Assembly: GCA_017553785.1 (NCBI GenBank)
Contig: JAFZKD010000044.1
Location: forward strand, 1 to 64,000
Source of the DNA: Muribaculaceae bacterium
Lineage (GTDB): Bacteria; Bacteroidota; Bacteroidia; Bacteroidales; Muribaculaceae
DNA: 64,000 nt
Direction: 5' to 3'
In this document: positions 2,446 to 57,225 of the stretch, one piece after another
Position numbering within the stretch: the first letter of the stretch is position 1
Layout: every line of letters begins with the position of its first letter
Notes under the pieces: model-generated
What the model was told of the DNA's origin: nothing
Seen by the model: the letters and a program-made list of their open reading frames with translations, nothing else
The model's database searches: none
Made by a program: the position numbers and the translations under genes

Positions 2446-3543
2446 TCAAGTTTCTAAACATTTAGAATCTTGAATCTTTACATTTCTCAATTGATTGTAG
2501 TGGCAGGTCATCATCAGGTCACCATTCCCGTCGCGCAGGTGAAGACCGTCACCTTGACAATAGCGGAACATCTCGCAATCCTGGCAAGGACCACGTCTCA
2601 TCCATTCGCGGTTGCGGAAAGGCTCAAAGCGGTTCTCCCACACGTCCCAAAAACTGTCGCGGTAGATGTTGCCCTGGCTGTAATCGCTGCGGATGCTCAG
2701 ACAACCCGAAATGTCGCCATTGGCACGGACGCTTGCCACGCTGAGGCCGGCCTGGCAGTAGAAGAAATGATCGCGGATCAGCCCTTCGTAGGCGCCCATA
2801 AAACCGTCACAGGCATAGCTGAGGTCGATTTTTCCCTCGATGCGGGTGGTGACAATGAAGTTCAGCAGTTCGCGGAACTGTTCATCGGTGAGCAACAGGC
2901 TTCTGTCGTTGGCAGCGCGCCCCATCGGGTCGATGGTGAAGCAGCGCCAACGGGTGACGCCAGCCTCGATGAGCAGTTTCTTCACCTCATTCAGCCGCGG
3001 CAGGTTACGGCCGTTGACACAGGTAATGACATCCCATGTGAGGTCGGGGATGGTCTGCACAGCCTCGATGGCACGCATGGCGGCATCAAAGCTTTTTGTG
3101 GAGTTCCTCAGCCAATTATGCTCCTCGCGCATGCCGTCCACGTCAAGGGCTAAAGAGTTGATGCCGGCTTGAGCCAACTCGCGGGCCACAGAACGGTCCA
3201 GAAGCAGGCCGTTGGTGACAAAACCCCACATGAAGCCTCGTTCACGTATGATTCGGCCGCAGTCCATCAGGTCGGGGCGCACCAGCGGCTCCCCGCCCAC
3301 GGTATCCACCATCACCTGTGTGGGGTCGCAATGCGCCGCCACCTCGTCGAGGACAGGCAGGAAATCGGCGAAGGGCATATCGGGGACCGCCGATTCCTTG
3401 AGGCAGTCACTGCCGCAATGCCGGCACGCCATGTTACAGCGCAGGGTGCATTCCCAAAACAGTTCCCGCAGGGGGTGTTCCCGCCTGAGGCGCTCGACGT
3501 GGTCGCGAGTCAATTCCAGTTGCTGCTGTTGATGCACATTCAT
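2446..3543 (-). CDS. Radical SAM/SPASM protein
   Basis: A 365-residue radical SAM enzyme. The [4Fe-4S]-SAM motif is C36-x3-C40-x2-C43 (CNMACRHC), followed by the TVGGEPLVRPDL segment (GGEP motif) and TNGLLLD. The C-terminal SPASM region (about 262-360) has the expected cysteines: CQAG, GDISGCLS, GPCQDCEMFRYC and a last TCHYN. SPASM proteins usually modify peptides or proteins, making thioether, C-C or epimerised residues, using auxiliary Fe-S clusters. It is the first gene of a minus-strand set with the two YG-motif proteins, which are the obvious candidate substrates. It resembles, from memory, the Bacteroidota 'rSAM/lipoprotein' class. The shared leader of its neighbours supports a leader-guided modification, but no chemistry can be read from sequence. 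Confidence 0.88.
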   Translation of the reverse strand: MNVHQQQQLELTRDHVERLRREHPLRELFWECTLRCNMACRHCGSDCLKESAVPDMPFADFLPVLDEVAAHCDPTQVMVDTVGGEPLVRPDLMDCGRIIRERGFMWGFVTNGLLLDRSVARELAQAGINSLALDVDGMREEHNWLRNSTKSFDAAMRAIEAVQTIPDLTWDVITCVNGRNLPRLNEVKKLLIEAGVTRWRCFTIDPMGRAANDRSLLLTDEQFRELLNFIVTTRIEGKIDLSYACDGFMGAYEGLIRDHFFYCQAGLSVASVRANGDISGCLSIRSDYSQGNIYRDSFWDVWENRFEPFRNREWMRRGPCQDCEMFRYCQGDGLHLRDGNGDLMMTCHYNQLRNVKIQDSKCLET

Positions 3544-23154: not shown

Positions 23155-24645
23155 TTACTCGGCCCAATTGCCAGTCAGCAGGTAGTCAATCAAGGCGGTC
23201 ACGTCACCGATGGTGATTTCGCCACTCAGATCACAGTCAGCATTGTCGCCGCTGAAGCCTTCGGCGTCATCAAAGTCGCCACTCAGCAAGTGGTCGATCA
23301 ATACGGTAACGTCAGCGATACCAACCTCACCGTCATTGTTCACGTCACCACGAAGGCCAATGGGCTCAGTTTCGAATACGAACTCGCTGCCATCGGTAAA
23401 GGACAGCACGTTGTTGGTGAAGGGATAGGAACCCAACTGCATGTTGGCACCATCGCTAACGCGTACGATACCCGGCAGGACATAAGCAGCGCGATCCCAC
23501 TTGATAGCGGTGGGCTCTACAGTACCAATGATAACGGTATCCTCGGTTGCCTCACCTTCCTCATCGACGTTATACAGCCAGTACCAGCGGGTGTTGTCCC
23601 AGTTGTAGGCACTGCCATAGTAGTCGGCATAGTAGTCCCTAGCGAGCTTACTCATCTCACTTACGGGCCAATCCAGAGGCATAACCATAGTACCATCCTT
23701 GTAGATGTTCATCTCGAAGCCGGGCATACCCATGCCGTAGAGATTGAACACAACTGCGGTGGTGTCATCATACTGGTACATGTAAACGTTCTCAGTGTTG
23801 TGCGAAGTGGTGGTAGCTTCCAAATCATAGTCATGGGTTGCGTTGGGCACGATGAATTGGGTGCCTACATAATACTCCTCAAAGTAGGTGGTATCACTCG
23901 ACTCAACAGTATAGGTATAACCGGTCCAAGAGCTACCTGAGCGCTTGTAGGTTACCAATGCCTGATAGCCGGCGAATACATAGGGCAGCTCACTGCTGAA
24001 CTCGATGCTTCCATCCTCATACAGGGTACCGGGAATGTCGGTGAATTCCTCGCTCTGGCCGGTATAGCGGTTTGCATCAACAAGGATCGAGTAGTTAACG
24101 GTGTCGGTACGCCTCCAGCTGCTACCGCTACCAGTGGATGTACCCTGAACAGTGTCATCGTCAAGCAGGATACCGCTGGGAATGGTAACCTCGTTGGTGG
24201 TGTAGTCGATGGTCACGGGCAGATAATAGGTGCTGCCGGTGTACTGGCTCCAGTAGATACCAGCGCAATACAACTGACCATTGGAAACCTGCCAGTAGAG
24301 ACCCTCGGCGCCGCGGAAGTGGTAAGCATCCCAGTCGAGGCCTTCGTCACCCATCGCATAGACATAGCGGAAGTCTATATAGTCGGTTGCTGCGATGTCT
24401 TCATCAGACAGACGGCGGGGAGCCTTGTTAGCAAGATTCTGGCCGGGATTAACGTTGTAGGTCTTGAAGTATTCCCTGGGGGTTAAAACACCCTGGCCAG
24501 GAGTAATGCTCTTGTCAAAACCTTGGGTCATGGTCATCATCTTCGGGGCATTCACCTTGGTCAGGTTAGCCTTGTTTAATTGGGGCATACCTGCCATAGC
24601 GGTCAGGCCTGCGCATACGAATAAAAGTGCTAAAAATTTTTTCAT
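23155..24645 (-). CDS. Secreted protein with C-terminal dockerin-like repeats (2)
   Basis: 496 residues. Signal peptide MKKFLALLFVCAGLTAMAG, then a ~60-residue Lys/Pro-rich propeptide-like part, then the domain shared with the neighbour at 21123-22325 (DYIDFRYVYAM, GLYWQVSNGQLYCAGIYWSQ, LPVTIDYTTNEV, repeats with SDTTYFEEYYVGTQFIVPN). Two dockerin-like calcium motifs finish the chain: DVNNDGEVGIADVTVLIDHL and DLSGEITIGDVTALIDYL. Cohesin partners are not visible in the window. The pair looks like a tandem duplication followed by divergence. Function unknown. Confidence 0.8.
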   Translation of the reverse strand: MKKFLALLFVCAGLTAMAGMPQLNKANLTKVNAPKMMTMTQGFDKSITPGQGVLTPREYFKTYNVNPGQNLANKAPRRLSDEDIAATDYIDFRYVYAMGDEGLDWDAYHFRGAEGLYWQVSNGQLYCAGIYWSQYTGSTYYLPVTIDYTTNEVTIPSGILLDDDTVQGTSTGSGSSWRRTDTVNYSILVDANRYTGQSEEFTDIPGTLYEDGSIEFSSELPYVFAGYQALVTYKRSGSSWTGYTYTVESSDTTYFEEYYVGTQFIVPNATHDYDLEATTTSHNTENVYMYQYDDTTAVVFNLYGMGMPGFEMNIYKDGTMVMPLDWPVSEMSKLARDYYADYYGSAYNWDNTRWYWLYNVDEEGEATEDTVIIGTVEPTAIKWDRAAYVLPGIVRVSDGANMQLGSYPFTNNVLSFTDGSEFVFETEPIGLRGDVNNDGEVGIADVTVLIDHLLSGDFDDAEGFSGDNADCDLSGEITIGDVTALIDYLLTGNWAE

Positions 24646-38414: not shown

Positions 38415-39905
38415 TCAATTACTGCTGTTACCCAACAGCATATCAATCAGGCTGGTGACATCCTTGATGGAAACATCGCCATCGCCGCTGACATCAGCAC
38501 AGATGAGGCACACGCCCGAATCATTGCCCAACAGATAGTCAATCAAGCTGGTCACGTCCTTGATGGTCACAAAGCCATCGTGGTTCACGTCACCAATATC
38601 ATATCCATGCTCTGGTTCGCTTAATCTACCGATAATGACGTAATTACGCTCCAAGCTGACGGTAATCTCGTAGTCGCCGGCGACGAGCACATGAACATCA
38701 GTGCAGTTGTCCAAACCCCAGCCCAGAGGCAGTTGTTTGCCGAGTTGATCTTCGGTCAAATCAAAGGGACCTTCTCCATCAATCTCGGGGCCGAAACGGT
38801 AGAGATTAACGTAATTCCAGCCACCCAGTTCGTCGTTTGGATCAATCTGGGTAGTGAAACCGAAGGTCTTGTCTGCTCCTACATGCACTGTAGCCGTGTA
38901 GGTCTCGGTAGCGGGATTATACTCCATCTTGGTTCCTGCATCGGATGCCCACACCTGGTCGTCAACCTCACCCAAGATGTGAACATCCTCGATGATGGGC
39001 TCTTCTTCAAGCGTAGTGAAGACATCCGACCTGGTCCAATCGCTCAAGGTGCCATTAGCGCCGATAGCCTGTACCTGCACCTCATACTCGGTCGCCATCT
39101 CAAGGTCAGTGATGGTGTAACTCTTCTTGATCAAGTTGTTCGCATAGGTCCATTCGTTTGCCTTCTTCATATCGGTAGCATCACCGGTATAAACCTCAAT
39201 TAGCGCGATATCAGGCGAATAATTAGCATCGGACGTCGTGATCGTGATCTTCTGGCCTGTGCTTGCCGTCACCACCCAAGCAAAGGTCTCATTGATGCTG
39301 AAAGTGTGGTTCACAGCAGCGGTCTGAGGCGTAGCTACGGCAAGATTACCTGAGCCATCATTGGTAGTGGCGGTGGTGATCTTCATCGTGAAGGTCGCAT
39401 CCTCGTATCCGTCGGGAATGGTGTAGGTGATGTTACCTGAGGTACCGGTACCGTTGTAATTGTTCCTGAAGTAGATGATCTTGTTGAGACCGCCACGCAC
39501 ATTAGTACCACCCCAAGGAGCGGGTAACGTGATATCATAATAGCCGGTTGAGCTGCCCGAGAAGTCGGTGCCTGCAATCGAACCGATGAGTTCAACTTCA
39601 GGTTCCTCGGAATACAGTCTATAGCGCAGATTCCATGCGCTATTCTCGTCATCATCCCACCTCACATCACATGAATACATACCTGGATCAACGTACAAGT
39701 TGTAAGGGACGGAAACATCGCGATTAGCTCTTAGCATGGCAGTAGCCTGAGTAATTCGATAGGGAGCAATGACAGCTGATTTAATCTTCTCGCCGTTACC
39801 CTGGGGTAATGGAGCATTCGGTTTAAAAACCTCTAATGCATTGATGCCTGCTGCGGCGGTGAAAGCGACAGCGGCACCTAATAAAAAGGTAATAAATTTC
39901 TTCAT
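38415..39905 (-). CDS. Secreted protein with fibronectin-III-like and dockerin-like domains (3)
   Basis: 496 residues. Signal peptide MKKFITFLLGAAVAFTAAAG. The middle has a beta-sandwich carbohydrate-binding-like part (GYYDITLPAPWGGTN, NKIIYFRNNYNG) and an FnIII-like segment (IKKSYTITDLEMATEYEVQVQAIG). A further domain resembles starch-binding outer-membrane folds (YTATVHVGADKTFGFTTQ). Two dockerin-like motifs close it: GDVNHDGFVTIKDVTSLIDYL and DVSGDGDVSIKDVTSLIDML (quoted in part). It shares only the C-terminal design with the two genes at 21-24 kb. A surface glycan-binding role is plausible but not shown. Confidence 0.8.
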   Translation of the reverse strand: MKKFITFLLGAAVAFTAAAGINALEVFKPNAPLPQGNGEKIKSAVIAPYRITQATAMLRANRDVSVPYNLYVDPGMYSCDVRWDDDENSAWNLRYRLYSEEPEVELIGSIAGTDFSGSSTGYYDITLPAPWGGTNVRGGLNKIIYFRNNYNGTGTSGNITYTIPDGYEDATFTMKITTATTNDGSGNLAVATPQTAAVNHTFSINETFAWVVTASTGQKITITTSDANYSPDIALIEVYTGDATDMKKANEWTYANNLIKKSYTITDLEMATEYEVQVQAIGANGTLSDWTRSDVFTTLEEEPIIEDVHILGEVDDQVWASDAGTKMEYNPATETYTATVHVGADKTFGFTTQIDPNDELGGWNYVNLYRFGPEIDGEGPFDLTEDQLGKQLPLGWGLDNCTDVHVLVAGDYEITVSLERNYVIIGRLSEPEHGYDIGDVNHDGFVTIKDVTSLIDYLLGNDSGVCLICADVSGDGDVSIKDVTSLIDMLLGNSSN

Positions 39906-41750: not shown

Positions 41751-42014
41751 ACGATAAAACTTTAATTGATGAATAAAAATATGATTATAGAATATGTGTC
41801 AATAACTCACAACGCTACAAATTTAATCAAATAAATTGAAATCTGAAAACTTTTAACTAAGTTAGTAGGTGTTTTCACAATAAATCGCACAAATGCCGAA
41901 CAATTCGGGAGTTTAGAGGTAATAATAATCGAGAAACCGTCCAGCGGTGGACCGCTGCGAATGTCAAAAAACAATCGATTAACTCATTTTATTACCAATT
42001 TATTGTCGGAAATT
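41751..42014. other. Host-prophage boundary region
   Basis: Holds a minus-strand -7 element TAAATTTG (41818-41825) for the secreted-protein gene and, just before the integrase, the small hairpin CAGCGG-TGGA-CCGCTG (41942-41957). The left attachment site should lie here or close by, but its core cannot be recognised without the other end of the prophage. Confidence 0.45.
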
Positions 42015-43190
42015 ATGGCAACTTTAAGAACAGTAATCGTGCCTACAAAGGCACTAAAAGGCGGGCGCCACAAAGTCCGCATCTCCATCGCCCACAACGG
42101 CCAGACTCGTTACATCCCCACCTCTATAATTATAGACAACGCACGCGAGTTCAAAAACGGACTCGTCGTCAACAGGGGCGACGCGGCTTTCCTCAACACA
42201 AAACTACGCAAGATGGTGCAGCACTACCAGGACGCAATAGACGAGGTGGGCTACATCGACGGCCTCACATGTCCCGAACTGGTGTACTCAATCACCCACT
42301 CGGACATGAACAGGCACAAGACCGTCAAGGAAATCTATGAGAAGTATATGGAGGTGGCCAACATCGCGGACACCACACGCAGGAACTACCGCTCGACCTA
42401 CAAGTGCCTGACTGCGTTTCTCGACGAGAACACGCTATTTGAACGCATAAGCCACCTCACCCTCGCAGGTTTCAACAAGTTCATGCTGGAGAGGGGCTAC
42501 AAGACCAATACCCGTAGAGACAAGCTCGTTTTCGTCCTCGTGCTGCTCAATTTCGCCGAGCGGTGCCACTACGCAGTACCGGCCTATAACCCGTTCATCG
42601 GCTACGAACTTCCACCCCAGGAAGTCAGACAGTCGTGGCTCACCGTTGACCAAATTAGGCACATACGGGACACCGAGAGCGAAAAGAAGGGCGTAAGGAT
42701 CTGCAGGGACATGATAATGCTATCATACTACCTCGGTGGCATCAACATCGCCGACCTGCTGGACGTGGACTTCAACGAGTGCCGCAACGTACTCCATTAC
42801 GTCAGACAAAAGACAAAGGACAAACCGAAGATGAACAAGTTCGTGGAGTTCCTCATCCCGGACGAGGCACAGCCCATCATCGAACGCTACAAAGGGAAAA
42901 GCGGCAAACTGCATTTCAGCAAGAGCGACAACTATAGATATCTGCACTATGTGTTCTCGGATTTCATGCATGAGCTGGCAGATCCAATCGGGGTAAAGTC
43001 ACTGGTGTACTATGCCGCACGCAAGTCATTCGCGCAGCACGCCTTCCAGTTGGGCGTCTCCGAGAGCGTCGTGGACTACATACTCGGGCATAGAGTTGAC
43101 AAAGTGAGTACCAGCCTTTACAGCTACATCTCAGTGACTCCACAGCAGGCGACAGACGCTGTGAGGCTCGTTCTGGATAACCTGAAGTGA
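42015..43190 (+). CDS. Tyrosine recombinase (prophage integrase)
   Basis: About 391 residues from the ATG at 42015 (MATLRTVIVPTKALKGG, the usual start of Bacteroidota integrases; an upstream ATG at 41961 is possible). Order: arm-binding N-terminal domain, SAM-like core-binding domain (KTVKEIYEKYMEVANIADTTRRNYRS), catalytic domain. In the catalytic domain the second arginine region (YYAARKSFAQHA), the GH motif (ILGHRVDK) and the nucleophile region (STSLYSYIS) are present. At box I, where the first catalytic Arg is expected, the sequence is SYYLGGINIADLL, so this Arg is absent or displaced. It is the only plus-strand phage gene seen and marks the left end of the prophage. Confidence 0.9.
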   Translation: MATLRTVIVPTKALKGGRHKVRISIAHNGQTRYIPTSIIIDNAREFKNGLVVNRGDAAFLNTKLRKMVQHYQDAIDEVGYIDGLTCPELVYSITHSDMNRHKTVKEIYEKYMEVANIADTTRRNYRSTYKCLTAFLDENTLFERISHLTLAGFNKFMLERGYKTNTRRDKLVFVLVLLNFAERCHYAVPAYNPFIGYELPPQEVRQSWLTVDQIRHIRDTESEKKGVRICRDMIMLSYYLGGINIADLLDVDFNECRNVLHYVRQKTKDKPKMNKFVEFLIPDEAQPIIERYKGKSGKLHFSKSDNYRYLHYVFSDFMHELADPIGVKSLVYYAARKSFAQHAFQLGVSESVVDYILGHRVDKVSTSLYSYISVTPQQATDAVRLVLDNLK

Positions 43191-45835: not shown

Positions 45836-46288
45836 CTAAAGCAAAGCTATGATGACATTGACGAAAATTCCTACCTCCACCCACCACATCCAGCGCTTGT
45901 GGTTGATGGCGGCAATCAGGAAAGAGGCGGCCAACGGCAGTAGCTGGGCGCCGTTGAAGATGAGCCATGCCACCGATGCAGCACCCATGACGATGGCGGC
46001 TCCGTAATGGATGCGGCTCACCCATGAGTCTCGGAACTGCGGCGACGCGGCAACGAAAAGCACGGAGGCACAAGCAAGGAAGGCACAGAACTCCAGCTGG
46101 CCGGCACTCACCCACGGCACAAACAGCAAGATGCCCACGGCGGCAAGGGTGGCACTGAACGTCCACCGCCTGCCGACGTGGTAATAGGTCTCGCTGATGC
46201 TCTCGGGGACACCGTGCCTAACAATATACATGGCAAGGTAGAGAACCAGCACGACAGCCGCCGCTATGACGCTACAACTCGACAACAT
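45836..46288 (-). CDS. Five-span membrane protein of unknown function
   Basis: 150 residues with about five hydrophobic segments: VIAAAVVLVLYLAMYIV, WTFSATLAAVGILLFVPWV, LEFCAFLACASVLFVAASP, IHYGAAIVMGAASVAWLIF and WWVEVGIFVNVIIALL, joined by short loops. The motif SETYYHVG-RRWTFS near residue 33 recalls phage membrane proteins in which a related YY motif is conserved. Its start overlaps the stop of the upstream gene by 17 nt. Function unknown; it may serve lysis or superinfection control. Confidence 0.65.
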   Translation of the reverse strand: MLSSCSVIAAAVVLVLYLAMYIVRHGVPESISETYYHVGRRWTFSATLAAVGILLFVPWVSAGQLEFCAFLACASVLFVAASPQFRDSWVSRIHYGAAIVMGAASVAWLIFNGAQLLPLAASFLIAAINHKRWMWWVEVGIFVNVIIALL

Positions 46289-46760
46289 GCTCGTAGTCGC
46301 TCCAGTTGATGCCGTCCTTCTCTGCCCAGCCGCGCTGGTAGGTGGACTGGATGAACTGAATAGCCTGGAAGTAGAAGCCCTGCAGCTCCTCCAGCGTCGT
46401 GAATGTGTAGTACTGGGGTTCCTCGGTCGTGCCGAACTTGAAGGTCACGGGCAACGTGGCACCGTTGGTCTGCACGGCGAGGTCAAAGGCGGACTTGTAG
46501 TTGAACTGGTTCTCGGTGGACAGCCATACGTTGTAGCGGATCCTGTCGCCGTTCTCCCACACGAAATCGCTGAGGATGGCCTTGTCAACGCGGCGGTTGA
46601 TGGCGTTGAGGATGATTTCCTTGATCTCCGCCAGCGTGGGCTTGTACTCCACCACCTCGTTTACCTTGCTGATGCCCTCCTCGTCGAGGCCGTAGAAAAT
46701 CTGATATCGGTTGCGGCCTATCTTCTGGATGCAGTTAAATTCTTCGTTATTCTGTGACAT
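46272..46760 (-). CDS. Phage protein downstream of the DGR, possible tail-fibre accessory
   Basis: 162 residues, soluble, acidic. The order of segments (CIQKIGRNRYQIFYGLDEE, KPTLAEIKEIILNAINRRVDKAIL, FVWENGDRIRYNVWLSTENQFNYK, TLPVTFKFGTTEEPQYYTF, LEELQGFYFQAIQFIQSTYQRGW) matches the DUF4376-like pattern of short proteins encoded after phage tail fibres, where they act as chaperones or caps. I cannot tell whether it serves the receptor-binding protein here. It begins ~80 nt after the reverse transcriptase stop, in the same direction. Confidence 0.7.
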   Translation of the reverse strand: MSQNNEEFNCIQKIGRNRYQIFYGLDEEGISKVNEVVEYKPTLAEIKEIILNAINRRVDKAILSDFVWENGDRIRYNVWLSTENQFNYKSAFDLAVQTNGATLPVTFKFGTTEEPQYYTFTTLEELQGFYFQAIQFIQSTYQRGWAEKDGINWSDYEHVVEL

Positions 46761-46839: not shown

Positions 46840-48183
46840 CTACGAGAACTTGTATTTTATCTTGTTGCCGTCGAAAACCTCACTGATGATGGTGGTTTCA
46901 AAGGGGAAGCCGTCCTCGATGTCGCTGATCTGGTCGAGGATGTTTTTCATCTCCTCGCTTGCTGTGAAGAACTTGCCCCACTCATTCGTTGCCGGGTCGA
47001 GGAAACTCACGATGTAGCGATCTTCGCCCTGGCTCGTCTTGATGCCGCTCTCGTAGGCGTGCACCTGGATGGCTTTGTTGACAATGGCACCGAGTCGCAC
47101 CGTCTTGCCGGGGAAACGCTTCTTCCCGTCGGCGGGCGTGTAGGTAACGCCCATTTCGCTGAACTTTTTCATCTTGTATCCTGTTAATGTTTCATATAGG
47201 TGTTTGCAGTCTGCGTGGCACGCCATCCCCTTGAACGAGCCGATAATCTCCTGGCGCCGTTTCCTCGACTTCACCCTCGCCAGCTTGCGTGCGGCGTTCT
47301 GCTTGATGCGTTTGCGCAGCAGGGAGTGTGTGCCGTAGTGGATATAGCCGAGGAAGTCCAGACCCTCAGACAAAGGGCGCACGGCCTCATTGGGTTTCAC
47401 CTCAAGCCCGAGCCGCTCAATGGCTCTGACATAGCGGTCACGCAGTTTCCACAGCGACTTCTTGTCGGGTGCGAGTATGACTACATCATCGCAATAGCGG
47501 TAGTACAGGTAGCGGCACTCGCCGTCGAGGTCGTAGGAGTAGGCATTTTCCAGCATCTCCTTGTCTATCGGCGACAGGAACAGGTTGGCGAAACACTGCG
47601 ATGAGCGCAGCCCCTTCGACAGGCCGTGCGGCATGAGTTCCACGAAGTTGTCGAGCATGGGCAGCAGCATAGGGTCGCTGAAGAACTGGCGCAGCAAGGC
47701 CTTCATCTCGCCCTGGTCGATGCTGTCGTAATACTTGTTGATGTCTGACTTGTAGAAGTAGATGTCCTTCCACCGGACGTTGCGCAGGTCATCCTCGACG
47801 ATGTGGTGCAGCCAGTGCATACCTTTGCCCTTGATGCTGGCGGCGGTGTTCTTGATGAGTGTGGGATAGGTGTATTTCTCAATGATGACCATGATGGCAT
47901 GGAGTCCGATGCGCTTCGGCACTCTCGGCGCCTGAACGTCCCTCAGTTTGGGTCCGTCCTTGACGGTCACGTCGCGCACCTCGTCACGTTTGAGGAAGAA
48001 TTTGCCCGTAGAGATGTCATGCTTCAGCTCGGATATGATGGCATCACGCCACGGCTTGTAGATGGCACGCTGGCGTGGGTATTCAAGGTGACTAATGACA
48101 TAGTCGAAACTCTCCTGCAAGTTCTGGTCGCTGACAATCTCTCCGATGAGGTCGCCCAGCGGGAATGTTACTGACGTCTCCAT
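46840..48183 (-). CDS. DGR-type reverse transcriptase
   Basis: 447 residues from the Met at 48183; the frame is open to an earlier ATG at 48324, but that extra part is low-complexity translation of the template-RNA spacer. RT motifs: KRIGLHAIMVIIEKYTYP, catalytic Asp147 in FYKSDINKYYDSID, G191-LRS-S195-Q196 (KGLRSSQ), YRYCDDVVIL with D232/D233, KPNEAVRPLSEGLDFLGY. GxxxSQ in place of the QGxxxSP of group II intron and retroviral RTs is the mark of diversity-generating retroelements. It copies the adjacent template RNA with errors at adenines, and the cDNA replaces the variable repeat. The gene is transcribed in line with the target gene, TR between them. Confidence 0.93.
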   Translation of the reverse strand: METSVTFPLGDLIGEIVSDQNLQESFDYVISHLEYPRQRAIYKPWRDAIISELKHDISTGKFFLKRDEVRDVTVKDGPKLRDVQAPRVPKRIGLHAIMVIIEKYTYPTLIKNTAASIKGKGMHWLHHIVEDDLRNVRWKDIYFYKSDINKYYDSIDQGEMKALLRQFFSDPMLLPMLDNFVELMPHGLSKGLRSSQCFANLFLSPIDKEMLENAYSYDLDGECRYLYYRYCDDVVILAPDKKSLWKLRDRYVRAIERLGLEVKPNEAVRPLSEGLDFLGYIHYGTHSLLRKRIKQNAARKLARVKSRKRRQEIIGSFKGMACHADCKHLYETLTGYKMKKFSEMGVTYTPADGKKRFPGKTVRLGAIVNKAIQVHAYESGIKTSQGEDRYIVSFLDPATNEWGKFFTASEEMKNILDQISDIEDGFPFETTIISEVFDGNKIKYKFS

Positions 48184-48333
48184 TGCCTTCAGGTCTCTCG
48201 TGATGTTCCGGCTTTCTGCATGAGCAGGGTTGCCGAGGCTCGGACCCCTCGCCCTTACCGATGGCGACACGTCGCCGTGGCAGCGGGACGATTGACACCC
48301 CCACGCTGAGACATGGCGGGTCAACTTGAAATT
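48184..48333 (-). other. DGR spacer between TR and RT
   Basis: 150 bp between the template repeat and the reverse transcriptase start. In studied DGRs this spacer is part of the template RNA and is needed for priming and RT binding. Here it contains the short hairpin GGCGAC/GTCGCC around 48263-48276 and GC-rich folds near 48230-48250. No gene of its own is credible in it. Confidence 0.55.
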
Positions 48334-48446
48334 AAGCCGAGAGCCGTTGTTGCCATTCGAGCGCGAACCAGCGTTGGACGTGTTGACGTAAACGATGCCA
48401 CTGTTCCCGTTCGTCGCATTGTTGCCAGAGCGGTTGACGCAACGAC
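48334..48446 (-). repeat. DGR template repeat (TR)
   Basis: 113 bp that matches the variable repeat at 48625-48737 (offset 291 bp) at 99 positions. Of the 14 differences, 13 fall at adenines of the TR coding strand. Read in the frame of the target it holds many AAC/AAT codons (CVN, GNN, TNGN, VN, TSN, NGNN), the design that gives the widest amino-acid choice under adenine mutagenesis. Confidence 0.95.
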
Positions 48447-48544
48447 TTCAAGGGTCCTCTACCTTTCGCGGGCAAAGTTACACATTCTCCACAAAAAAGC
48501 AAGCGGAAAACCCCGAAAAGTTCTCCGCCCGCTATCCAGTCGGG

Positions 48545-48575
48545 AGAGTGAGCAGCCGCAAGCGGCTCTCACTCT
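48545..48575 (-). repeat. Hairpin downstream of the variable repeat
   Basis: AGAGTGAG plus AGCCGC pair with GCGGCT plus CTCACTCT: 14 bp with one bulged base and a loop of 2-4 nt. It starts 49 bp past the end of the variable repeat and 16 bp past the stop codon of the tail gene. DNA hairpins near the 3' end of the VR assist target recognition in studied DGRs. It has no T-tract on the minus strand, so it is a poor terminator. Confidence 0.65.
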
Positions 48576-48591
48576 GCGCTTTTTCGCTTTG

Positions 48592-51500
48592 CTACTCAAC
48601 GATCTCGAACGCGCCCCTGAAGGCAAGCCGAGAGCCGTAGACGCCATTCGAGCCCGAACCAGCGACGGACGTGACGACGCAAACGATGCCACTGACCCCG
48701 TTCGTCGCAAAGTTGCCAGAGCGGTAGACGCAACGACCCGTTTCTGCTGCATAGTAGTTACCGTCGCAGTAGTAGGTGTTGTAGCTGTTCAAATTGGCAA
48801 TCGTCACAACGCGGCTGGGCACCACATCGGCATAACGGCCGTTGCGGAAACGGCAAATTTCTATGCTGTCGCCGCCACTCGTCACGCCACGCACGGCACG
48901 CTCGGTACCGTCCGGCATACGGATGTGCCATACACCGTCGGCAACACTGCCAGCTGGAGCGACGCGGTCGGTGACTCCTGAGCCGTGGGTCTTGTAGTAC
49001 CCGTCATAGCTGGCCACGTTGACGGCCACATTGTCCATCCACTCGCTGTAGTTGCACCACCAGTCCTCGAAACCGAGGGTGCGCACGCGCAGCTGGTTCG
49101 TGCCGTTGGCGACGGTCTCACGGAACGGAGACTTGTTGGTCGTGCTGTTCGAGCCGCCAGTGACGATGGAGGCACTGCCGCTATTGTTGTTGTTCGATGT
49201 ACCCTGACCGTTGACGGCCTGCGCATTCCTGCGGCCCTTGATGGCCATCCACAGGTTAGCCACGTTCTTGTGCATCTCGTAGTCAATAATCTGGTAGCCT
49301 GCACCCCTGGCTTTGCCGAGGTTCTGGAAGTCGGTGCAGGTGTACTTCATGTTGTTGATGACGGTGGAGTCATCAGGCAGGCCTACAGTCAAATCACCGT
49401 TGGCATCATAACGCCAGTGCGTTGAACTTACAGAGTCACCGCTGCCTTTGCCGTAGCGGACAGAAGCGCCACTGATGGAGCGCAGGCGCATCTGCGAGTC
49501 GATGCTCGCCTTGTACACGCCGATGAACTCCATGCCGTGCTCTACCCAGTCGGGCTCGATGGCCTCAATCTCCGAGCTGTCAACGGCGATGCACTCCATG
49601 TCGTCACAGCCTGTCGGCGAGGTGAACACGAAGGAAGCAGCCCCGGCGGGAACGGCGATGAACAAGTATTCCTCACCGACAACGAAGTCACTGTTGGCGT
49701 GCGTGATGTTGGTGGTAACCTTGCTCAAGACCTTGCCGTCCTTGTCGAGGAAGATAGCACCTATGGACAGGCTGCTGACACCTGGCCAGCGCACCTGCTT
49801 CATGCCTTCCACGTTGCGGCGGTACACGTTGTAACTGGTGTTGGTTGAAAGGTTCGCCACATCGAACACGTCGCCCACCTCGAAGCTGGCGAGGGCGACA
49901 GTCCTCTGCGTGCCAATCTTGATGTCACCGATGCGGCCACGGATGATGTTCTGTGCCGTCGAGTGAGGCTCGGTCGCCTCGGTGGAGAAGGCGATGTACT
50001 TCTTCTGGTTGCGGTGGTCGTTGATGCCCTTGTACCAGTAGTGGGGCAGACCCACGAACAAGTCCATGCCAGAGCCGCTGAGGTCGGTGATGTCGATACT
50101 CTCGCCGTTGGCAAGGTAGTTGATATCGGTGTCGCTCACCTGCTGGAACATCATCTTGTTGTGTGCGCTGTCGTACTGACCAGCATAGACGTGCATGGCG
50201 TTCTTGATCTTCGTGATGTGGCCGCTCGGCTCGTAGCCGTTGAGCACACCGTCCTTCGTGCCGTTCTCCAGGTTGGTGATGTTGCCGTCGTAGCTCACGG
50301 TCTCGTCAAATTCGATCATCGTATACTGGAGGTTGTACACCGTTAACTCGGGGAAGTAGTTCTGGATGCTCGTCAGCGTGGAGGCGTCCACCATGTCGGT
50401 CATTGACCATGTGCCCACCATACCGGAGCACTGGCCACTCTCGCTGTAGGCGGTGCCGTCGGCAGCGATACCCGTCACGCCCATCTCGATGAGGGCAAGC
50501 AGCGTGGAACTCGGTCCAGTGGCATTGAGACCTGCCATCCTCAGCCTTGAGATGTTAGCATTGGCTGCAGCAAGGTTGCCGAGCAGCTGTGCGCCGTCAA
50601 TCAACGGACAACCCGATACAACCAGCTTGGTGACGGCATTCAGCCCTTCAAAGGTCAGTCCGCCGGAAGAGTCGCCCGGATAGGCGAGGTTGGGCAGGTT
50701 GACCATCGTGAGGCTCGTAATCGTTGAGGGCAACGCGAGCACAGACACGGGGGAAGTCTCGGCCAGCGACACGGTCGTCAACTGGCTACCCTCGGCAAGG
50801 AACGTCTCCAGTCGCGGGCAGCGGCTGGCATCCACGTTGGTGATGACGGTGTCGGTGATGTCGAGGTATCTCAGGAACGGCAGCTCGCCGAGGTTGAGGT
50901 TCCTCAACGCGCCATAGGAGCCGATACCCATAGTGACATGGCCATCACCGCCGATCTCTATCTTCTCGGCCAGCGTGAACACGTTGAAGTTCGCAACGTC
51001 GCTCAGGCTGATTTCGTTGAAGTTGATTTCGGCAATGCGGTCGCACTGGTAGATGTAGAGCAATGCGCCCTCGATGCTCGTGCCGTCTCCACGGTTGAAC
51101 TGCGTGAAGGTGTGGCTCTCGCCAGCCTCCAGGTAAACGCTCTCTTTCAAGTCGCCGGCAGAGTCGATGCCGACACCGAAGTAACCCGTCTTGGCGGCCT
51201 TGATGGTGATGCCTGCACCCGAAGCGCAGTTGATACGCGCACTGAACACGCCAGTGAAGAACAGTCCCGTGCGGTAGTAGCCGTCGCGGATGCGGAAGCG
51301 CGTGTTGATGAAGGCAGGGATGGCCGTCAGCCTCAAGCCGTGCAAAGCATAGAAGTAGATGGCGTCAGCGGTGGCCGTGAAGTTGATGAACTTGCGCTCA
51401 CCGTCATAGCTGCTGACAACCTTCTGCCACTTGTAGGCGATGTTCTCCATGAAGAAGTGCATCGCACCCTCGGGACTGAACGGGGCAAGCGTGATGCCGT

Positions 51501-54500
51501 CCACCGTGGCCTGAGAGGAACGCATGGCGGCGACTACGGTCTGCATGGAAATCTCCGCACCCGCATCGTCAAGGACGGTCGGCTGCTGGTAGATGTTGTT
51601 CCACAGGATCGAGCCGTAACCCGCATAGGGATTGTTGTAGCCCGTGGCCACGTCGCTGGGCTTGTTGGGGTCCACCTCGGGGTCAACGGTGGCGCCACCG
51701 TCATTGTCCTTGCCCAGCAGACCGTCGGCATCATACACCTTGTTGGGGTACATGATAAGCGCAGGCTGGTAGCCGCTGAAGGTCTGGCTGCACCAGGAAT
51801 TGTGGTAAACGCCGTTGATGACGCTCTGCCCCTCGTCGAGGAAGAACATGGGCTGCATGTTCTTTGCCTGCTGGTCGATGGCGGCAAGGTAGTCGGTGAA
51901 GCCGTTATAGGCCATCAGCGCACGCGGGTTGGCGAAGTAGCGCAGGTGGTTGTACCAAATGGACTTGAAGCCCGATACACTGGTATAGTCGCACGAGTTG
52001 CAGAAACGCAGCAGAGCATAGAGGTTGTAGGGCACCTTCTTGCCCAAGGCAAGGTCAATCTGCAACTGGTCGTTGTCAATCATGCACTCAAAGAACTGGG
52101 TCCATGCGGGGTAAGGTCCCGTGACATCGCCCTTGTCCTGGAGTTTCTGAACCCACGAGGAACTGGTGGCCACAGGTGCCATCATGTCGGCAATGCTCGT
52201 CACTCCCATGAACCAGTCCATGCCGGTGTAGGCAAGCAGCTCGTAGCCGTCCACGGGGTTGAGGACGTCACCAGTAATCTGCCAACGGCCGTTCACCATC
52301 TGCATCGTGCCGGTGGTGTCCACCCATTCGTTGTTCTGCCAACGCATGAACTTGTAGCTGCTGCCGCAGTACATCGACAGCAGTACGGGGTGCATCTGGT
52401 CGAAGTCGAGCGGGTCTTGGCTGAGGAAGCGGGTCACCACCTTTTCGATGGTGTCGTCCTCGGGCAGGCCGAAATACTCGGTGAAACTCTCGTCCTGGTA
52501 GTTCAGACAGCCCATGTTGTAGCCGGGGGTGTCCTTGAAACCGAGGGCCACCTGCTCGCCCTTGTCCTCTTTCCAGTTGCCCTTGGCATAGAAGTAGGTG
52601 CTCGCACCTGTGCCGTCGGGGTCGCGGAACATGGCAATGGGATGGTTTGCCGTCGAGTGGTTGAGGTTCAGTCCGGTCAGGTTCACCTGCTCGGCTCCGC
52701 TGCCGATGCTGTAGGTGCCGTCATAGTAACGCTGGGCAGGCGTCAGGAACTTGCCGCTGAGCGCACGGTAGGTGGCGTTCATGATGTTGCAGGCACCGCA
52801 GTCGTTTACATTGGTGCTGTCCGAATAGTCCACCTTGACGGTAATCACATCCACGGGGATGGTGTTCTCGCCGACGCGGATCTTGTTCCTCGCCATCAGT
52901 GCGGCGGCCTCGTCCCACAACGCGCCGTCATACCCCATGGAGACAATCTCCTCACGGGTGTGCAGGGGCTTGATGACACATACCTTTCCGTAGGTCTGAC
53001 CGTCAACGATATAGTCGCTGTTGTTGTTCTTGCTCTTGCGGGCAAGGTTGTAGCGGGCGTTCTTGATGGGACGCTTCGCCGAGGTGGTACCCTGGTTGCG
53101 CCTGCGCACGTTGTAGGCGATGAAGTCACGCCACGGACGGCTCGGGTCGCGGTAGGTAAGGTTGATGAATATCTGGTCGCTCGTCGAGGTGGTGTTGTCC
53201 AGTCCCTCGACGTTGCTGCCCTGGAATGGCGACTCGATGAGGTACGGCATGCCGCGCTCGGCCATCCTGCTCATGCTCGGGCCGTTGACGGTGCTGCCGT
53301 CATACACATCCTCGAAGTCGTACTCGTTGATCATCGCCTCGGCATCGCTCAGCTTGACAAGGTAGTTGTAGAACTGCTGCTGCCACTCGATGTAGTTGTA
53401 CCAGCCGATGAGGTAGTACAGGTAGAAGTCGCCCATCGTGCCGTTGAACTTGATGTTGTTGGGCTGGATGAGGTTGGAGCCTGACGGCACATAACCCAGA
53501 CATGCAGCCTCCTCACCGTTGAGGTACAGCTTCATCAGCGAGTAGCGCGTGCCGTTGCGCTCGATATACTTCGTGCCGGGTTCCACCACGATGCCGACGG
53601 TGATCTTCTCGCCGTTCGGGTAACGGCGCTCCTCGACCTCGTGGTTGCCCGTCTTGCAGTAGATGCCGACATGCTTGCCCGTGACGTAGAAGCCCGCACC
53701 GCTGGCAGGGTCGTAGCACTCCATGAGGTGGGCATCGTTGTCCTTGATGTTGTTCGCGGCGAACTGGAACAGGATGGAGTAGCCGCTGCTCTCGATGCTC
53801 GCTGAACTGAACGGGGCATCGTTCAGCTCTGCGGTGACGTTCTCCTTGATGGCAAGGGCGTTTGCACCGAGGAAGTTGTTGAAGCCGTTGGACGACCAGT
53901 TGGCACCATCGACGGAAATCTCGAACTGGTTGTTCTGACCGCTCACGATGCTGTGGTCCACCTCGCTGTTGCTGCGGGCGGAGAAGTCGAAATTATAGGA
54001 CGCTCCGTCCGTCAGGGCGGCGTCGATGGCACTGCCACGGATGACAAGCGTCACGGGGTTGGACTGGCCATAGGCACCGCAGTAGGCGCGGAACGTCAGC
54101 ACATCGTTGTCGTTGCCGCTCGTCACCTGCTTGGTCAATGTCTGCACGGTGTTGCGCACGACAATCATGCTGGCGATGGTCTCGCCGTTCTCCTTCACTG
54201 TGACGGCGGCATTGTAGTGGAGCTTGTCATAGGCTGCGACCTCAAGCACCACATTGTCATAGCGGCGGATGTAGCCGTCTGACCTGTCGTTGTAGCGCAA
54301 AGCCACAAGCGGAGTGGTTTCCGAGGTGTTGACGACCATGATGCAGGAGTAGATGATGTTGCCCTTCACGCCGCTGGCCACGTCGGTGCCCTGTATCTTG
54401 ATGGGGTAACTGCCGTGGTACAGCACCTCGTTGTTGCCGAAGGCGTTGTTCGGGTTGACACTGATGTTGTGGGCATAGGTGTCGGTGATGACGGCCTGCC

Positions 54501-57225
54501 CAAGCGTGTGCCATGCTCTCTGGTAGTACATCTCCACTTTTGCGAGGATACCCTGACCGCCCTGGTTGTTCGGGAACTTGTACATCGGCAGGGACTTCAC
54601 GTTGTCGGTACGGAACACAACGCTTGCTTCGGTGTAGTTGAGCGTCTGAACGCTCTCCACCGTCACGTCAACGGCAACCACGTTGATGGCTCGCTGTGCG
54701 GTAGCGCCCGACGTGTCGTAGGCGATGAGCTGCAGGCGTCTCGTGGTCGCTGCGGTGAAGTAGCTCGACAGGTCGAACACGAAGTCATAGGTGCTGCTCG
54801 TCGCCGAGGATGCCTGGTTGAGGCTCCTGTTGGAGTACAGCACGGCAGCCGTGTCGCGGTCGATGATGTCAACACGCTCGATGGTGTCGGAAATCTCGTT
54901 GTTGCCGTCCATCGTGATGCTGCGGATGGCAGCGCGGATGACGAACGAGCCGCCAGCAGCGGCATAGAACGGCGAGGTCTGGAAGTTGATGGCGAAGGTC
55001 TTTGTCGTGCCGCCACCGCCGCCACCGCCCTTGGGAATGGCGAATGGGGTGAAGCCTGGAACACGGGTGCCGTCAACATTCACCAGCACGAAATAGTTGT
55101 AGTTCTCGGTGTCTGCTCCGTCCACAAGGTCCTCGGCCTCGCTCGCCTCAAGCATCTCCGCACCCTTGGGGATGTGGTTGTATGCGCCACCGGTGCTGAA
55201 GGCGTCCTCGCCTCCGTCCTCGGGATCATCCTCTGCCTCCAGCGTCTCAACGTCACCGCCACTGCCGAAATCTTTCCAAAGTCCCGCCTCTCCGAAGTCG
55301 GACACGTTGCCGTTGAACTGCTTAGTCTCCCACTGGTTGTCACCGACAGGATATGTGATCACCAGTCCGCTTTTCTTGTAGGTGATGCCGGTAGCCGACT
55401 CCTTAGCGGTGATGGCGGCAATGGCATACTGCAAAGTGTAGTATTGAGCCTGCGTGCAGGCACCACACAAGTCAAGGATGTTGATTAAGGCCTCGTCGCC
55501 AGCGGCAAGTCCAGCCATATCTACCCAGTTATCCTGATTGGTGAAGTTCACCTCAGTGGTGTCACTTCCGATATACTGGAACGTCTTCCATGTACTCTCG
55601 CCGACCTGGAACGTAATCTGCATACCTGCGGCGGCAAGTCCCTTGGCATAGGTGGCAGCAATGGCCGTTCCGAGGTTGTAGTAACCCTGCGTGGGCACCT
55701 CGTTGGTGACGTTGTAGCAGTTACCCACGGCGGCACTGCCTCCGAACTCTTTCCAGTCGTCGGCGTTGCTCCAGGTAGTACCCTTCCACTGGTAGGACTT
55801 CAAGCCGCCTGCGGTGCTCAGAGTGATGACCACGCCCTTTTGACGGACGTAGGCAAATGCACTGCCCGTGGTCAATGCCACGAACTGCGACAACGAGAGG
55901 CTGTTGGCTTCGTTGCCAGTCAGCACGTTGCCGTTAAAGAACAGACGAGCGGCAAGTCCAGGGTCGGAAATCGCCGTCAGGGACGACACCTCGTCGTTCC
56001 AGTAATAGGACACGTCATTTGATGTGCAGATATAGAGCTTGTTCGCATACGGCACGAACACGCCGTTCACATTCTCACTGAACAGGTCACGGTCGCCCCA
56101 ATCGAGGTAGAAGGTGAAGTAATCGACAATGACCTGCTCACGCAAAAGGTCGGCGATAACAAGGTCACTGAAATGGACGTAAGGCGAAACCGTGACAGCC
56201 CTTTGAACGGCGTTCAATGCCATCAGGTGCACGGGCTGCACGTTTGCCGATGGCCAGTTGGCAGGCACCAGCGAGTTGCGCACACCGAGCACGAACTGGT
56301 TGAGGCTTGTGACGTAGAACACCTGGCAGTCGTTGTCGGTACTCTTCTTGTTGGATGATGCCTGGGCAACGGTCGCCGTGGGCAGGACGGCCGAGAACTC
56401 ACGCACGGCATCAGTGCCGAGTGAACCGATCTGCACGAACTCGCCGAGATTGCTGTCTGCACTCTGGTCCCAGCGGTAGGTGTTTCCAGTCTCCAAGTGG
56501 CAGTAGATGGTGCCACCTTGTGGCTTGCCGAGGTCAACGATGCCGATTTGCTCGATGTTGGTCTTTTTGAATAACTTGCGGTAGGGCGTGTTATTTATTA
56601 GGCCGTCTTCGAGATAGATGCTGCCAACGGGAATAGCACTCCAGTCGTAGTTTTCAATGTCAAGAGGAGATATGGGTACGACGTTGTAAAGCATAACCTC
56701 TGGCCACTCGCCCGGGGTTAGCCTCGATGGCATGGCCTTGCCGTTCAAAAGGTTCGCTTTCGTCGGCAGGGCATTTTCGACATTCGTTGCCTTTGACATG
56801 GCAGAGGCGGCAGCGGTGGCGGCTGCCTCTGCATTGGTGTATGCCAAATTGATTTTCGTCATGGTGGCGGCAGTGATGATACCGGCCTTCGTAGTCGTCG
56901 CGATAGGCAACGTGCCAGAGACTGAATTGCCTCCAGCGTTGGTTATGGTCAGAGTTACAGTAGCCCCATCATCGTCTGCAGTAACAGAGGCCGACTGCAA
57001 CTCCTTGGCATTGATGAGGCTGGTAAGTCCCTGGGTGTCGGCGGAACCCATCGCCTCGATGAGCGTCTTCAACACGCCGAAGGTCACACGGCGCCCGCCA
57101 TCAATCTCGAAGCTGTCAGTGTCCTGCAGCGCGGTGACGGCCGTGAGCTGCGCAATGGTCTTGCTGTTCGTCTGCAACGCAGACAACACGGCAGAGACGA
57201 TAGTTGTTATTTCTTCTGTTGTCAT
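48592..57225 (-). CDS. Giant phage receptor-binding (tail) protein, DGR target
   Basis: 2877 residues, the largest gene of the window. The start (MTTEEITTIVSAVLSALQTN, ITAATMTKINLAYTNAEAAATAA) is tail-fibre-like helical sequence. Around 430-660 three related modules end in WKEFG, WVDMA and WKDFG. After a Gly-rich hinge (~735-750) come beta-sandwich domains (Ig-like and a concanavalin/LamG-like part with NIKFNGTMGDFYLYYL, ~1250-1300), a long central region unique to phages, a leucine-rich-repeat-like stretch (LRNLNLGELPFLRYLDIT, ~2110-2250), and a C-terminal C-type-lectin-like domain (GFEDWWCNYSEWMDN, GDSIEICRFRNGRY) with the VR and the end GSRLAFRGAFEIVE. The lectin fold displays the variable residues for host-receptor binding. 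It follows the upstream gene after 5 nt. Confidence 0.92.
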   Translation of the reverse strand: MTTEEITTIVSAVLSALQTNSKTIAQLTAVTALQDTDSFEIDGGRRVTFGVLKTLIEAMGSADTQGLTSLINAKELQSASVTADDDGATVTLTITNAGGNSVSGTLPIATTTKAGIITAATMTKINLAYTNAEAAATAAASAMSKATNVENALPTKANLLNGKAMPSRLTPGEWPEVMLYNVVPISPLDIENYDWSAIPVGSIYLEDGLINNTPYRKLFKKTNIEQIGIVDLGKPQGGTIYCHLETGNTYRWDQSADSNLGEFVQIGSLGTDAVREFSAVLPTATVAQASSNKKSTDNDCQVFYVTSLNQFVLGVRNSLVPANWPSANVQPVHLMALNAVQRAVTVSPYVHFSDLVIADLLREQVIVDYFTFYLDWGDRDLFSENVNGVFVPYANKLYICTSNDVSYYWNDEVSSLTAISDPGLAARLFFNGNVLTGNEANSLSLSQFVALTTGSAFAYVRQKGVVITLSTAGGLKSYQWKGTTWSNADDWKEFGGSAAVGNCYNVTNEVPTQGYYNLGTAIAATYAKGLAAAGMQITFQVGESTWKTFQYIGSDTTEVNFTNQDNWVDMAGLAAGDEALINILDLCGACTQAQYYTLQYAIAAITAKESATGITYKKSGLVITYPVGDNQWETKQFNGNVSDFGEAGLWKDFGSGGDVETLEAEDDPEDGGEDAFSTGGAYNHIPKGAEMLEASEAEDLVDGADTENYNYFVLVNVDGTRVPGFTPFAIPKGGGGGGGTTKTFAINFQTSPFYAAAGGSFVIRAAIRSITMDGNNEISDTIERVDIIDRDTAAVLYSNRSLNQASSATSSTYDFVFDLSSYFTAATTRRLQLIAYDTSGATAQRAINVVAVDVTVESVQTLNYTEASVVFRTDNVKSLPMYKFPNNQGGQGILAKVEMYYQRAWHTLGQAVITDTYAHNISVNPNNAFGNNEVLYHGSYPIKIQGTDVASGVKGNIIYSCIMVVNTSETTPLVALRYNDRSDGYIRRYDNVVLEVAAYDKLHYNAAVTVKENGETIASMIVVRNTVQTLTKQVTSGNDNDVLTFRAYCGAYGQSNPVTLVIRGSAIDAALTDGASYNFDFSARSNSEVDHSIVSGQNNQFEISVDGANWSSNGFNNFLGANALAIKENVTAELNDAPFSSASIESSGYSILFQFAANNIKDNDAHLMECYDPASGAGFYVTGKHVGIYCKTGNHEVEERRYPNGEKITVGIVVEPGTKYIERNGTRYSLMKLYLNGEEAACLGYVPSGSNLIQPNNIKFNGTMGDFYLYYLIGWYNYIEWQQQFYNYLVKLSDAEAMINEYDFEDVYDGSTVNGPSMSRMAERGMPYLIESPFQGSNVEGLDNTTSTSDQIFINLTYRDPSRPWRDFIAYNVRRRNQGTTSAKRPIKNARYNLARKSKNNNSDYIVDGQTYGKVCVIKPLHTREEIVSMGYDGALWDEAAALMARNKIRVGENTIPVDVITVKVDYSDSTNVNDCGACNIMNATYRALSGKFLTPAQRYYDGTYSIGSGAEQVNLTGLNLNHSTANHPIAMFRDPDGTGASTYFYAKGNWKEDKGEQVALGFKDTPGYNMGCLNYQDESFTEYFGLPEDDTIEKVVTRFLSQDPLDFDQMHPVLLSMYCGSSYKFMRWQNNEWVDTTGTMQMVNGRWQITGDVLNPVDGYELLAYTGMDWFMGVTSIADMMAPVATSSSWVQKLQDKGDVTGPYPAWTQFFECMIDNDQLQIDLALGKKVPYNLYALLRFCNSCDYTSVSGFKSIWYNHLRYFANPRALMAYNGFTDYLAAIDQQAKNMQPMFFLDEGQSVINGVYHNSWCSQTFSGYQPALIMYPNKVYDADGLLGKDNDGGATVDPEVDPNKPSDVATGYNNPYAGYGSILWNNIYQQPTVLDDAGAEISMQTVVAAMRSSQATVDGITLAPFSPEGAMHFFMENIAYKWQKVVSSYDGERKFINFTATADAIYFYALHGLRLTAIPAFINTRFRIRDGYYRTGLFFTGVFSARINCASGAGITIKAAKTGYFGVGIDSAGDLKESVYLEAGESHTFTQFNRGDGTSIEGALLYIYQCDRIAEINFNEISLSDVANFNVFTLAEKIEIGGDGHVTMGIGSYGALRNLNLGELPFLRYLDITDTVITNVDASRCPRLETFLAEGSQLTTVSLAETSPVSVLALPSTITSLTMVNLPNLAYPGDSSGGLTFEGLNAVTKLVVSGCPLIDGAQLLGNLAAANANISRLRMAGLNATGPSSTLLALIEMGVTGIAADGTAYSESGQCSGMVGTWSMTDMVDASTLTSIQNYFPELTVYNLQYTMIEFDETVSYDGNITNLENGTKDGVLNGYEPSGHITKIKNAMHVYAGQYDSAHNKMMFQQVSDTDINYLANGESIDITDLSGSGMDLFVGLPHYWYKGINDHRNQKKYIAFSTEATEPHSTAQNIIRGRIGDIKIGTQRTVALASFEVGDVFDVANLSTNTSYNVYRRNVEGMKQVRWPGVSSLSIGAIFLDKDGKVLSKVTTNITHANSDFVVGEEYLFIAVPAGAASFVFTSPTGCDDMECIAVDSSEIEAIEPDWVEHGMEFIGVYKASIDSQMRLRSISGASVRYGKGSGDSVSSTHWRYDANGDLTVGLPDDSTVINNMKYTCTDFQNLGKARGAGYQIIDYEMHKNVANLWMAIKGRRNAQAVNGQGTSNNNNSGSASIVTGGSNSTTNKSPFRETVANGTNQLRVRTLGFEDWWCNYSEWMDNVAVNVASYDGYYKTHGSGVTDRVAPAGSVADGVWHIRMPDGTERAVRGVTSGGDSIEICRFRNGRYADVVPSRVVTIANLNSYNTYYCDGNYYAAETGRCVYRSGNFATNGVSGIVCVVTSVAGSGSNGVYGSRLAFRGAFEIVE
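48625..48737 (-). repeat. DGR variable repeat (VR)
   Basis: The 113-bp 3' part of the tail gene, codons ~2831-2867. Relative to TR the residues changed by adenine substitutions are N-Y, N-F, N-V, Y-C, N-V, N-V, N-V and N-Y, plus one R-G change from a non-adenine difference (C to G; TR position 48363). The constant end GGCTCTCGGCTT before the unmatched sequence is the candidate initiation-of-mutagenic-homology region. Confidence 0.95.

Follow-up and report, generated by a model that had tools for sequence, protein, structure and literature searches.

A diversity-generating retroelement of the hankyphage lineage in a Muribaculaceae prophage, with an RT-3 spacer RNA and a C-terminally extended reverse transcriptase

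Introduction

Does the reverse transcriptase (RT) gene with its two adjacent 113-bp repeats on contig JAFZKD010000044.1 of a Muribaculaceae bacterium (GenBank assembly GCA_017553785.1) form a working diversity-generating retroelement (DGR), and how would such an element operate when avd, the usual helper gene, is not recognisable in it? The window analysed here, i.e., the whole stretch of 64,000 nucleotides from positions 1 to 64,000 of the forward strand, represents nearly all of this 64,047-base contig, which is part of a draft assembly of 2.5 Mb in 122 contigs (80% complete). The cassette is almost certainly a DGR of the hankyphage lineage carried by a prophage, in which a transcript, an RT bound to the spacer RNA RT-3 and adenine mutagenesis of a variable repeat (VR) would act together; judged from its sequence, it is genuine and very probably functional. 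The DGR itself is ordinary for phages of gut Bacteroidales and the cassette belongs to a known lineage, but two lineage-wide features deserve follow-up: RT-3 as a DGR spacer, and a domain fused to the RT with no Avd detectable.

Template and variable repeats

The template repeat (TR; 48334-48446, minus strand) comprises 113 nt with 25 coding-strand adenines, and the VR (48625-48737, minus strand) is a direct repeat of equal length at an offset of 291 nt. Alignment of both repeats reproduced the coordinates, size and mismatch counts of the initial annotation: 14 of the 113 positions differ, and 13 of these are adenines of the coding (minus) strand of the TR, reading as T on its plus strand. The hypergeometric probability of at least 13 of 14 mismatches falling on 25 adenines among 113 positions is P = 1.7e-9. 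Nine VR codons differ from those of the TR, seven of them being AAY (Asn) codons in the TR, in line with the preference for Asn codons annotated before. The TR adenines occupy codon positions 1 (14) and 2 (11) and never position 3, and adenine changes alone can turn no TR codon into a stop.

By its position only, the 3' end of the VR (48625-48638, minus strand), 14 nt identical to TR 48334-48347, is a candidate site for the initiation of mutagenic homing (IMH). A conserved stem-loop downstream of the VR is unsupported: the window has a hairpin 50-80 nt past the VR, and in 106 relatives the stems in this place are no longer than those of a control stretch.

Reverse transcriptase

The RT gene (46840-48183, minus strand) encodes 447 residues when read from ATG 48183, the start favoured by alignment of the relatives over TTG 48324, where the program-listed open reading frame (ORF) begins. 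The frame is open and carries the motifs GLRSSQ and YCDD, i.e., the GxxxSQ and YCDD noted initially; a second GxxxSQ string (GIKTSQ) in the C-terminal domain is a chance motif match. The protein matches PHROG 1423 (reverse transcriptase) at 7e-85, and in the PDB it scores best against the reverse transcriptase in entry 8ub7 and its sisters (3e-20), which we take to be the BPP-1 DGR enzyme; a group II intron RT scores 7e-4.

A tree was calculated for 36 RTs (17 clade members, nine phage references, four group II introns and six others). It unites the 17 clade members with a support of 100/100, and a branch supported by 98/94 joins this clade, all nine phage references and four other RTs, separating them from all four group II introns and from two more RTs. 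The tree leaves 13 of its 33 inner branches unresolved, has a root chosen for drawing only, does not unite the nine references in one group and includes no named retron or Abi RT. The window RT lies on its DGR side, away from group II introns, and an RT outside the DGR clade, named initially as a ground for refutation, is not what the tree shows. Adenine-biased TR/VR pairs accompany seven of the nine reference RTs; none was found for cr50_1 and LBR48 within the stretch examined. For two distant RTs outside the clade (L015 and L016; 34% identity, YADD), the best repeat shows 10 mismatches at adenines and 18 elsewhere; they did not fit the pattern and were excluded from a pooled mismatch count.

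The same genome harbours a second RT on contig C5 (L235; 408 aa, GNLTSQ and YVDD), which groups with the RT of L234, a locus equipped with DGR repeats; a search of 2.2 kb at L235 itself gave no TR/VR pair.

Spacer RNA

The spacer between TR and RT matches the Rfam family RT-3 RNA (RF03068; 48173-48293, minus strand) with 64.1 bits at a gathering cut-off of 40.5. The match spans the whole model (positions 1-148), is the only Rfam match above gathering in 41000-64000, starts 41 nt past the TR and stops 10 nt inside the RT gene. RT-3 is located directly upstream of the RT in 13/15, 19/20 and 3/3 loci of relatives, amounting to 36 of 39 RT loci with the window included. The three misses are L009 and L071, missed again in a rescan, and L030, also at E up to 0.01. 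The distance from TR to RT-3 is 6-135 nt in 15 loci having both RT-3 and a TR/VR pair.

The converse search, starting from the RNA, yielded nine RT-3 places in 101 genomes of the genus, each adjoining an RT of this type; the corresponding RT search gave a tenth place, which is a contig-edge fragment, and 14 control genomes contained no RT-3 match. Together with samples of 393 genomes of the order and 397 genomes of the family, 33 loci were collected by RNA alone (L255 scoring just below gathering, and four family-sample places left out), 31 of which have the RT motif G[LM]RSSQ and 25 a TR/VR pair. The motif is missing in L256, which has a TR/VR pair, and in L247, a short contig end. The pair of L254 is longer and less clean (430 nt; 19 adenine and 10 other changes), and no pair was found in the flanks of about 1.5 kb at L239-L244, where an RT is present, and at L047, located at a contig end.

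RNAalifold predicted 16 base pairs, 13 of them with changes on both sides, from a sequence-only alignment of 31 spacers that had been selected by scoring as RT-3. In this alignment 91.1% of the cells pair, and covariation reached 0.607, whereas shuffles gave 0.195 and slid partners no more than 0.167, with the tested structure being derived from, and hence favoured by, the same alignment. Structural support comes from this covariation; folded as a single sequence, the window spacer is unremarkable (z -1.22). The RT-3 structure is under selection, and RT-3 is very probably the spacer RNA of these DGRs.

No function of RT-3 and no link to DGRs was found in the literature searched, and an earlier link may exist in the original description, reportedly that of Weinberg 2017. 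The CaCoFold and Rfam 15 papers cite RT-3 for a refolded helix with eight covarying pairs, and name no function in the excerpts available (PMC7657543, PMC11701678). The orphan family would gain a concrete place and a testable role as DGR spacer, likely in RT recruitment and cDNA priming.

At L234, a DGR template repeat (2778-2881) is adjoined on its 5' side by Rfam RT-15 RNA (RF03018, 177.9 bits; 2589-2780, plus strand) and has two adenine-only variable repeats with 9 and 15 changes. RT-15 looks like a second Rfam RT-n family that belongs to a DGR RNA. At seven further loci with DGR repeats, nothing in Rfam matched at E up to 0.01.

Comparison with known DGRs

Hankyphage p00 (BK010646) shares with the window the order target-VR-TR-RT-DUF4376, a VR at the end of a giant ORF, an RT with 45% identity over 442 columns (C-terminal domain included) and RT-3 (146.6 bits) between the annotated TR and the RT. 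Hankyphages are Mu-like and transposable according to excerpts of PMC6199706 and PMC12135933, whereas the window prophage encodes a tyrosine integrase. For B. thetaiotaomicron, hankyphages with an active DGR have been reported (excerpt of PMC12135933).

The Bacteroides phages BS-TP4 and BKO1-TP3 (about 64-65 kb) encode RTs that are 51-53% identical to that of the window over 90% of the query and likewise possess RT-3, a giant ORF before the RT and a DUF4376 gene after it. BS-TP4 has an adenine-only TR/VR pair and differs from the window by genes for a Gp49/RelE-like toxin and a helix-turn-helix (HTH) protein between VR and TR (L026:10977-11637); for BKO1-TP3, no TR/VR pair was found in the stretch searched. 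Loci with VR-TR gaps of 817-896 nt may resemble the BS-TP4 arrangement.

Bordetella phage BPP-1 has the same target-VR-TR-spacer-RT order as the window and, with 17 of 17 changes at adenines, a similar pattern of TR/VR differences. Its spacer is also a structured RNA in the same place, but of a different family (Rfam RF03022, Phage_DGR). Unlike the window, BPP-1 harbours avd between VR and TR, and its RT of 328 aa is devoid of the C-terminal domain.

Helper function

The initial annotation had called this DGR complete; TR, VR, RT and target are indeed present, but the Pfam model bAvd (PF22296) revealed no homologue of avd, the usual helper gene, among the window ORFs tested. The BPP-1 DGR depends on Avd; its spacer serves to recruit the complex of RT and Avd, and cDNA synthesis is primed by an adenine inside the spacer (excerpt of PMC12875486). 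The bAvd model matched none of seven other ORFs tested near RTs (including those of p00 and BS-TP4), a scan with the neighbours of other relatives outside it, while BPP-1 Avd scored 123 bits; it gave no match on contig C49 either. Furthermore, in 90 of 107 distinct pairs the VR-TR gap measures less than 330 nt and is too short for an avd-like gene, compared to the 387 nt of BPP-1 avd. A large DGR lineage, including hankyphages reported as active, seems devoid of a recognisable copy of the helper needed in BPP-1.

What these RTs possess instead is a C-terminal domain of 110 aa (46840-47172, minus strand; PHROG 19665), whose invariant positions are kept in 35 of 35 rows of the RT alignment. Within the genus genomes and phage records searched, this conserved domain was found on these RTs only: all 10 places in the genus genomes are on them, and the 31 matches in phage records comprise 22 on annotated RTs, three in unannotated records and six in LoVEphage-like phages, where the RT region is split over several ORFs. 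A credible sequence match in the PDB was not obtained. The fused domain may do the work of Avd. In the LoVEphage-like locus L030 (7671-9214), the RT region matches in three pieces across several annotated ORFs; the locus nevertheless has an adenine-biased TR/VR pair (16 of 17 changes).

Alternatively, the helper function could be supplied by another protein, i.e., the product of the downstream DUF4376 gene or a four-helix protein resembling Avd with its gene at some other place in the host genome, which we consider rather unlikely. The DUF4376 protein (PF14301, PHROG 19239; 46272-46760, minus strand) is encoded next downstream of the RT, and a DUF4376-like ORF follows within 1.5 kb in 154 of 157 loci having at least 600 nt there. 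In addition, the size and isoelectric point of a small ORF near the hankyphage RT have been set beside those of Avd (excerpt of PMC6199706), a figure legend lists an Avd among the hankyphage DGR parts, the gene meant not being discernible (excerpt of PMC12135933), and three bAvd matches below the cut-off occur on other host contigs. These last matches, however, sit on contigs without this RT, and the bAvd model recognised neither the DUF4376 proteins of p00, BS-TP4 and the window nor the 64-aa ORF of p00, the latter having no Pfam match at all and being rejected as an Avd. Moreover, two of 11 DUF4376 copies in the genus are located apart from any RT of this type, and the window copy has a weak tail-fibre match (E = 0.004). 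DUF4376 is probably a tail-module gene rather than a dedicated helper, a reading that fits better because of the copies lying away from the RT.

A domain fused to the RT as helper and an RT-3 spacer that recruits and primes the enzyme would together define a distinct Avd-less class of DGRs widespread in Bacteroidales phages. We put this class forward tentatively, holding it to be somewhat short of an even chance. If it is real, the Rfam RT-n families (such as RT-15 beside the TR of another DGR) would in part be DGR template RNAs. RT-3 and the fused domain also offer a second RNA/protein architecture for testing what primes and licenses DGR cDNA synthesis.

Proposed mechanism and activity in the lineage

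A minus-strand transcript would carry the TR, then the RT-3 spacer RNA and then the RT message. The RT, consisting of its core and its own C-terminal domain, is predicted to bind the RT-3 spacer, to prime cDNA synthesis beside the TR and to misincorporate opposite TR adenines, and the mutated cDNA would then take the place of the VR in the terminal part of the 2877-residue phage protein. RNA binding, priming and retrohoming are here modelled on the BPP-1 DGR.

Relatives of the window RT were taken from two scans (the best 80 of 113 and the best 80 of 189, with some contigs recurring in both), and 159 loci were used after one incomplete locus had been left out. A TR/VR pair is located nearby in 118 of them, corresponding to 109 distinct pairs, in which 1526 of 3138 TR adenines are changed compared to 49 of 9487 other sites. 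This ratio is inflated, because the repeat finder penalises non-adenine mismatches; L116 contributes 13 and L124 six of the 49 non-adenine changes.

A less biased comparison is that of VRs from loci sharing one and the same TR, the loci still stemming from the finder and pairs with equal VRs being skipped. Among 29 such pairs, 18 are disjoint, and their VRs differ at 264 of 511 adenine sites and 11 of 1579 other sites, compared to 292 of 4851 sites in the 5' flank. In seven disjoint pairs (L063/L064, L067/L178, L117/L118, L123/L128, L125/L127, L143/L145 and L170/L171) the flank is identical over 300 nt and the 900 nt downstream contain at most one difference; their VRs nonetheless differ at 7-18 adenine sites and at no other site. 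For example, L063 and L064 differ at 15 of 28 adenine sites and 0 of 88 other sites of the VR, 0 of 300 flanking and 0 of 900 downstream positions. Variation confined to TR adenines in related genomes, proposed initially as a check, is thus found at the level of the lineage as a strong concentration, and by these sequence comparisons the lineage of the DGR is active.

Several points weigh against this explanation. Besides the lack of an avd homologue, to be set against the Avd named in the hankyphage legend, and the ordinary stems past the VR, these are the following: (i) one TR/VR mismatch is not at an adenine (C in the TR, G in the VR, coding strand); (ii) a sibling VR of the window TR was not found in the 101 genus genomes at up to three mismatches, nor an exact one in viral contigs; (iii) L124, whose flank is equally identical, differs from its sisters at six non-adenine VR sites, and L100 and L174 differ from each other at three; and (iv) the first search revealed no TR/VR pair in 41 of the 159 loci. 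As to the first, L002, the closest relative in which both repeats are present, has the C of the TR in TR and VR alike, from which it follows that the change arose in the VR. As to the last, gapped and inverted searches account for few of the 41 loci. Inverting the target produced a single partial match, in L173. The gapped search, with L087 and L207 at contig edges outside it, retrieved direct repeat pieces with changes at adenines only in L147 and L172, an inverted piece of the same kind in L173, and none in the others searched. At L085 and other pairless loci, the target is remote or lost.

Two of these loci are of separate interest. Adenine-only inverted repeat pieces flank the RT in L173 (2778-2862 and 4387-4470), the sole sign of an inverted TR/VR layout, and in L085 (2664-2785) TR, RT-3 and RT are present with no VR within 3 kb, the corresponding viral contig containing a single match to the TR pattern.

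One may suppose that the cassette is a fossil, i.e., that it once diversified its target and is inactive in the present copy. The single VR change outside adenines, the missing second VR state of the window TR and the interruption of the prophage by the contig end would agree with such a history, which is nevertheless improbable considering that the RT frame is open with both motifs, RT-3 scores above the curated cut-off, 12 of 25 TR adenines are still unaltered in the VR, and close relatives such as L063/L064 differ almost only at VR adenine sites in otherwise identical loci. That TR and VR are an ordinary duplication diverged by normal mutation has nothing in its favour beyond the existence of two similar copies and can practically be dismissed, given the concentration of 13 of 14 differences on 25 of 113 positions and the same bias in relatives.

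Target gene

The cassette, read as a DGR, would act on a giant gene of 2877 codons (48592-57225, minus strand), with the VR at its 3' end within the last 48 codons. The first changed residue is the 44th from the C-terminus, consistent with the terminal placement of the changed residues in the initial annotation. The ORF matches PHROG 14959 with 2306 bits, and, apart from the TR, the assembly contains no further copy of its end. The variable domain of DGR targets usually, though not universally, adopts a C-type lectin fold; with the variable C-terminus of this target, a Pfam search taken to E = 10 found nothing, and no PDB sequence matched credibly.

Diversification of the hankyphage tail fibre has been reported in culture (excerpt of PMC12135933). 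By position and by analogy with this fibre, a role as receptor-binding, i.e., host-binding, tip is the natural and plausible reading of the 2877-residue protein. Its label as tail protein is plausible on the same grounds, and is to be set against the fact that PHROG 14959, the only PHROG family matched, is one of unknown function.

Prophage and contig setting

The location of the DGR within a prophage, as annotated initially, agrees with the integrase, amidase and further phage genes around the cassette. The prophage seems to start near a gene for a phage-type tyrosine integrase (41961-43190, plus strand), which lies towards the host side. From there the order is amidase, small genes, DUF4376, RT, repeats and giant target, followed by more phage genes; since these run to the contig end, the prophage is incomplete here.

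In the left 41 kb, several of the scanned ORFs resemble those of a host chromosome (short-chain dehydrogenase, ApbE, FAD-binding protein). In this otherwise host-like part, a 624-aa protein (16885-18759, minus strand) matches a PHROG family of terminase large subunits (1.4e-20) and perhaps belongs to a second mobile element. Two further proteins encoded on the minus strand (23155-24645 and 38415-39905) carry terminal dockerin type I domains.

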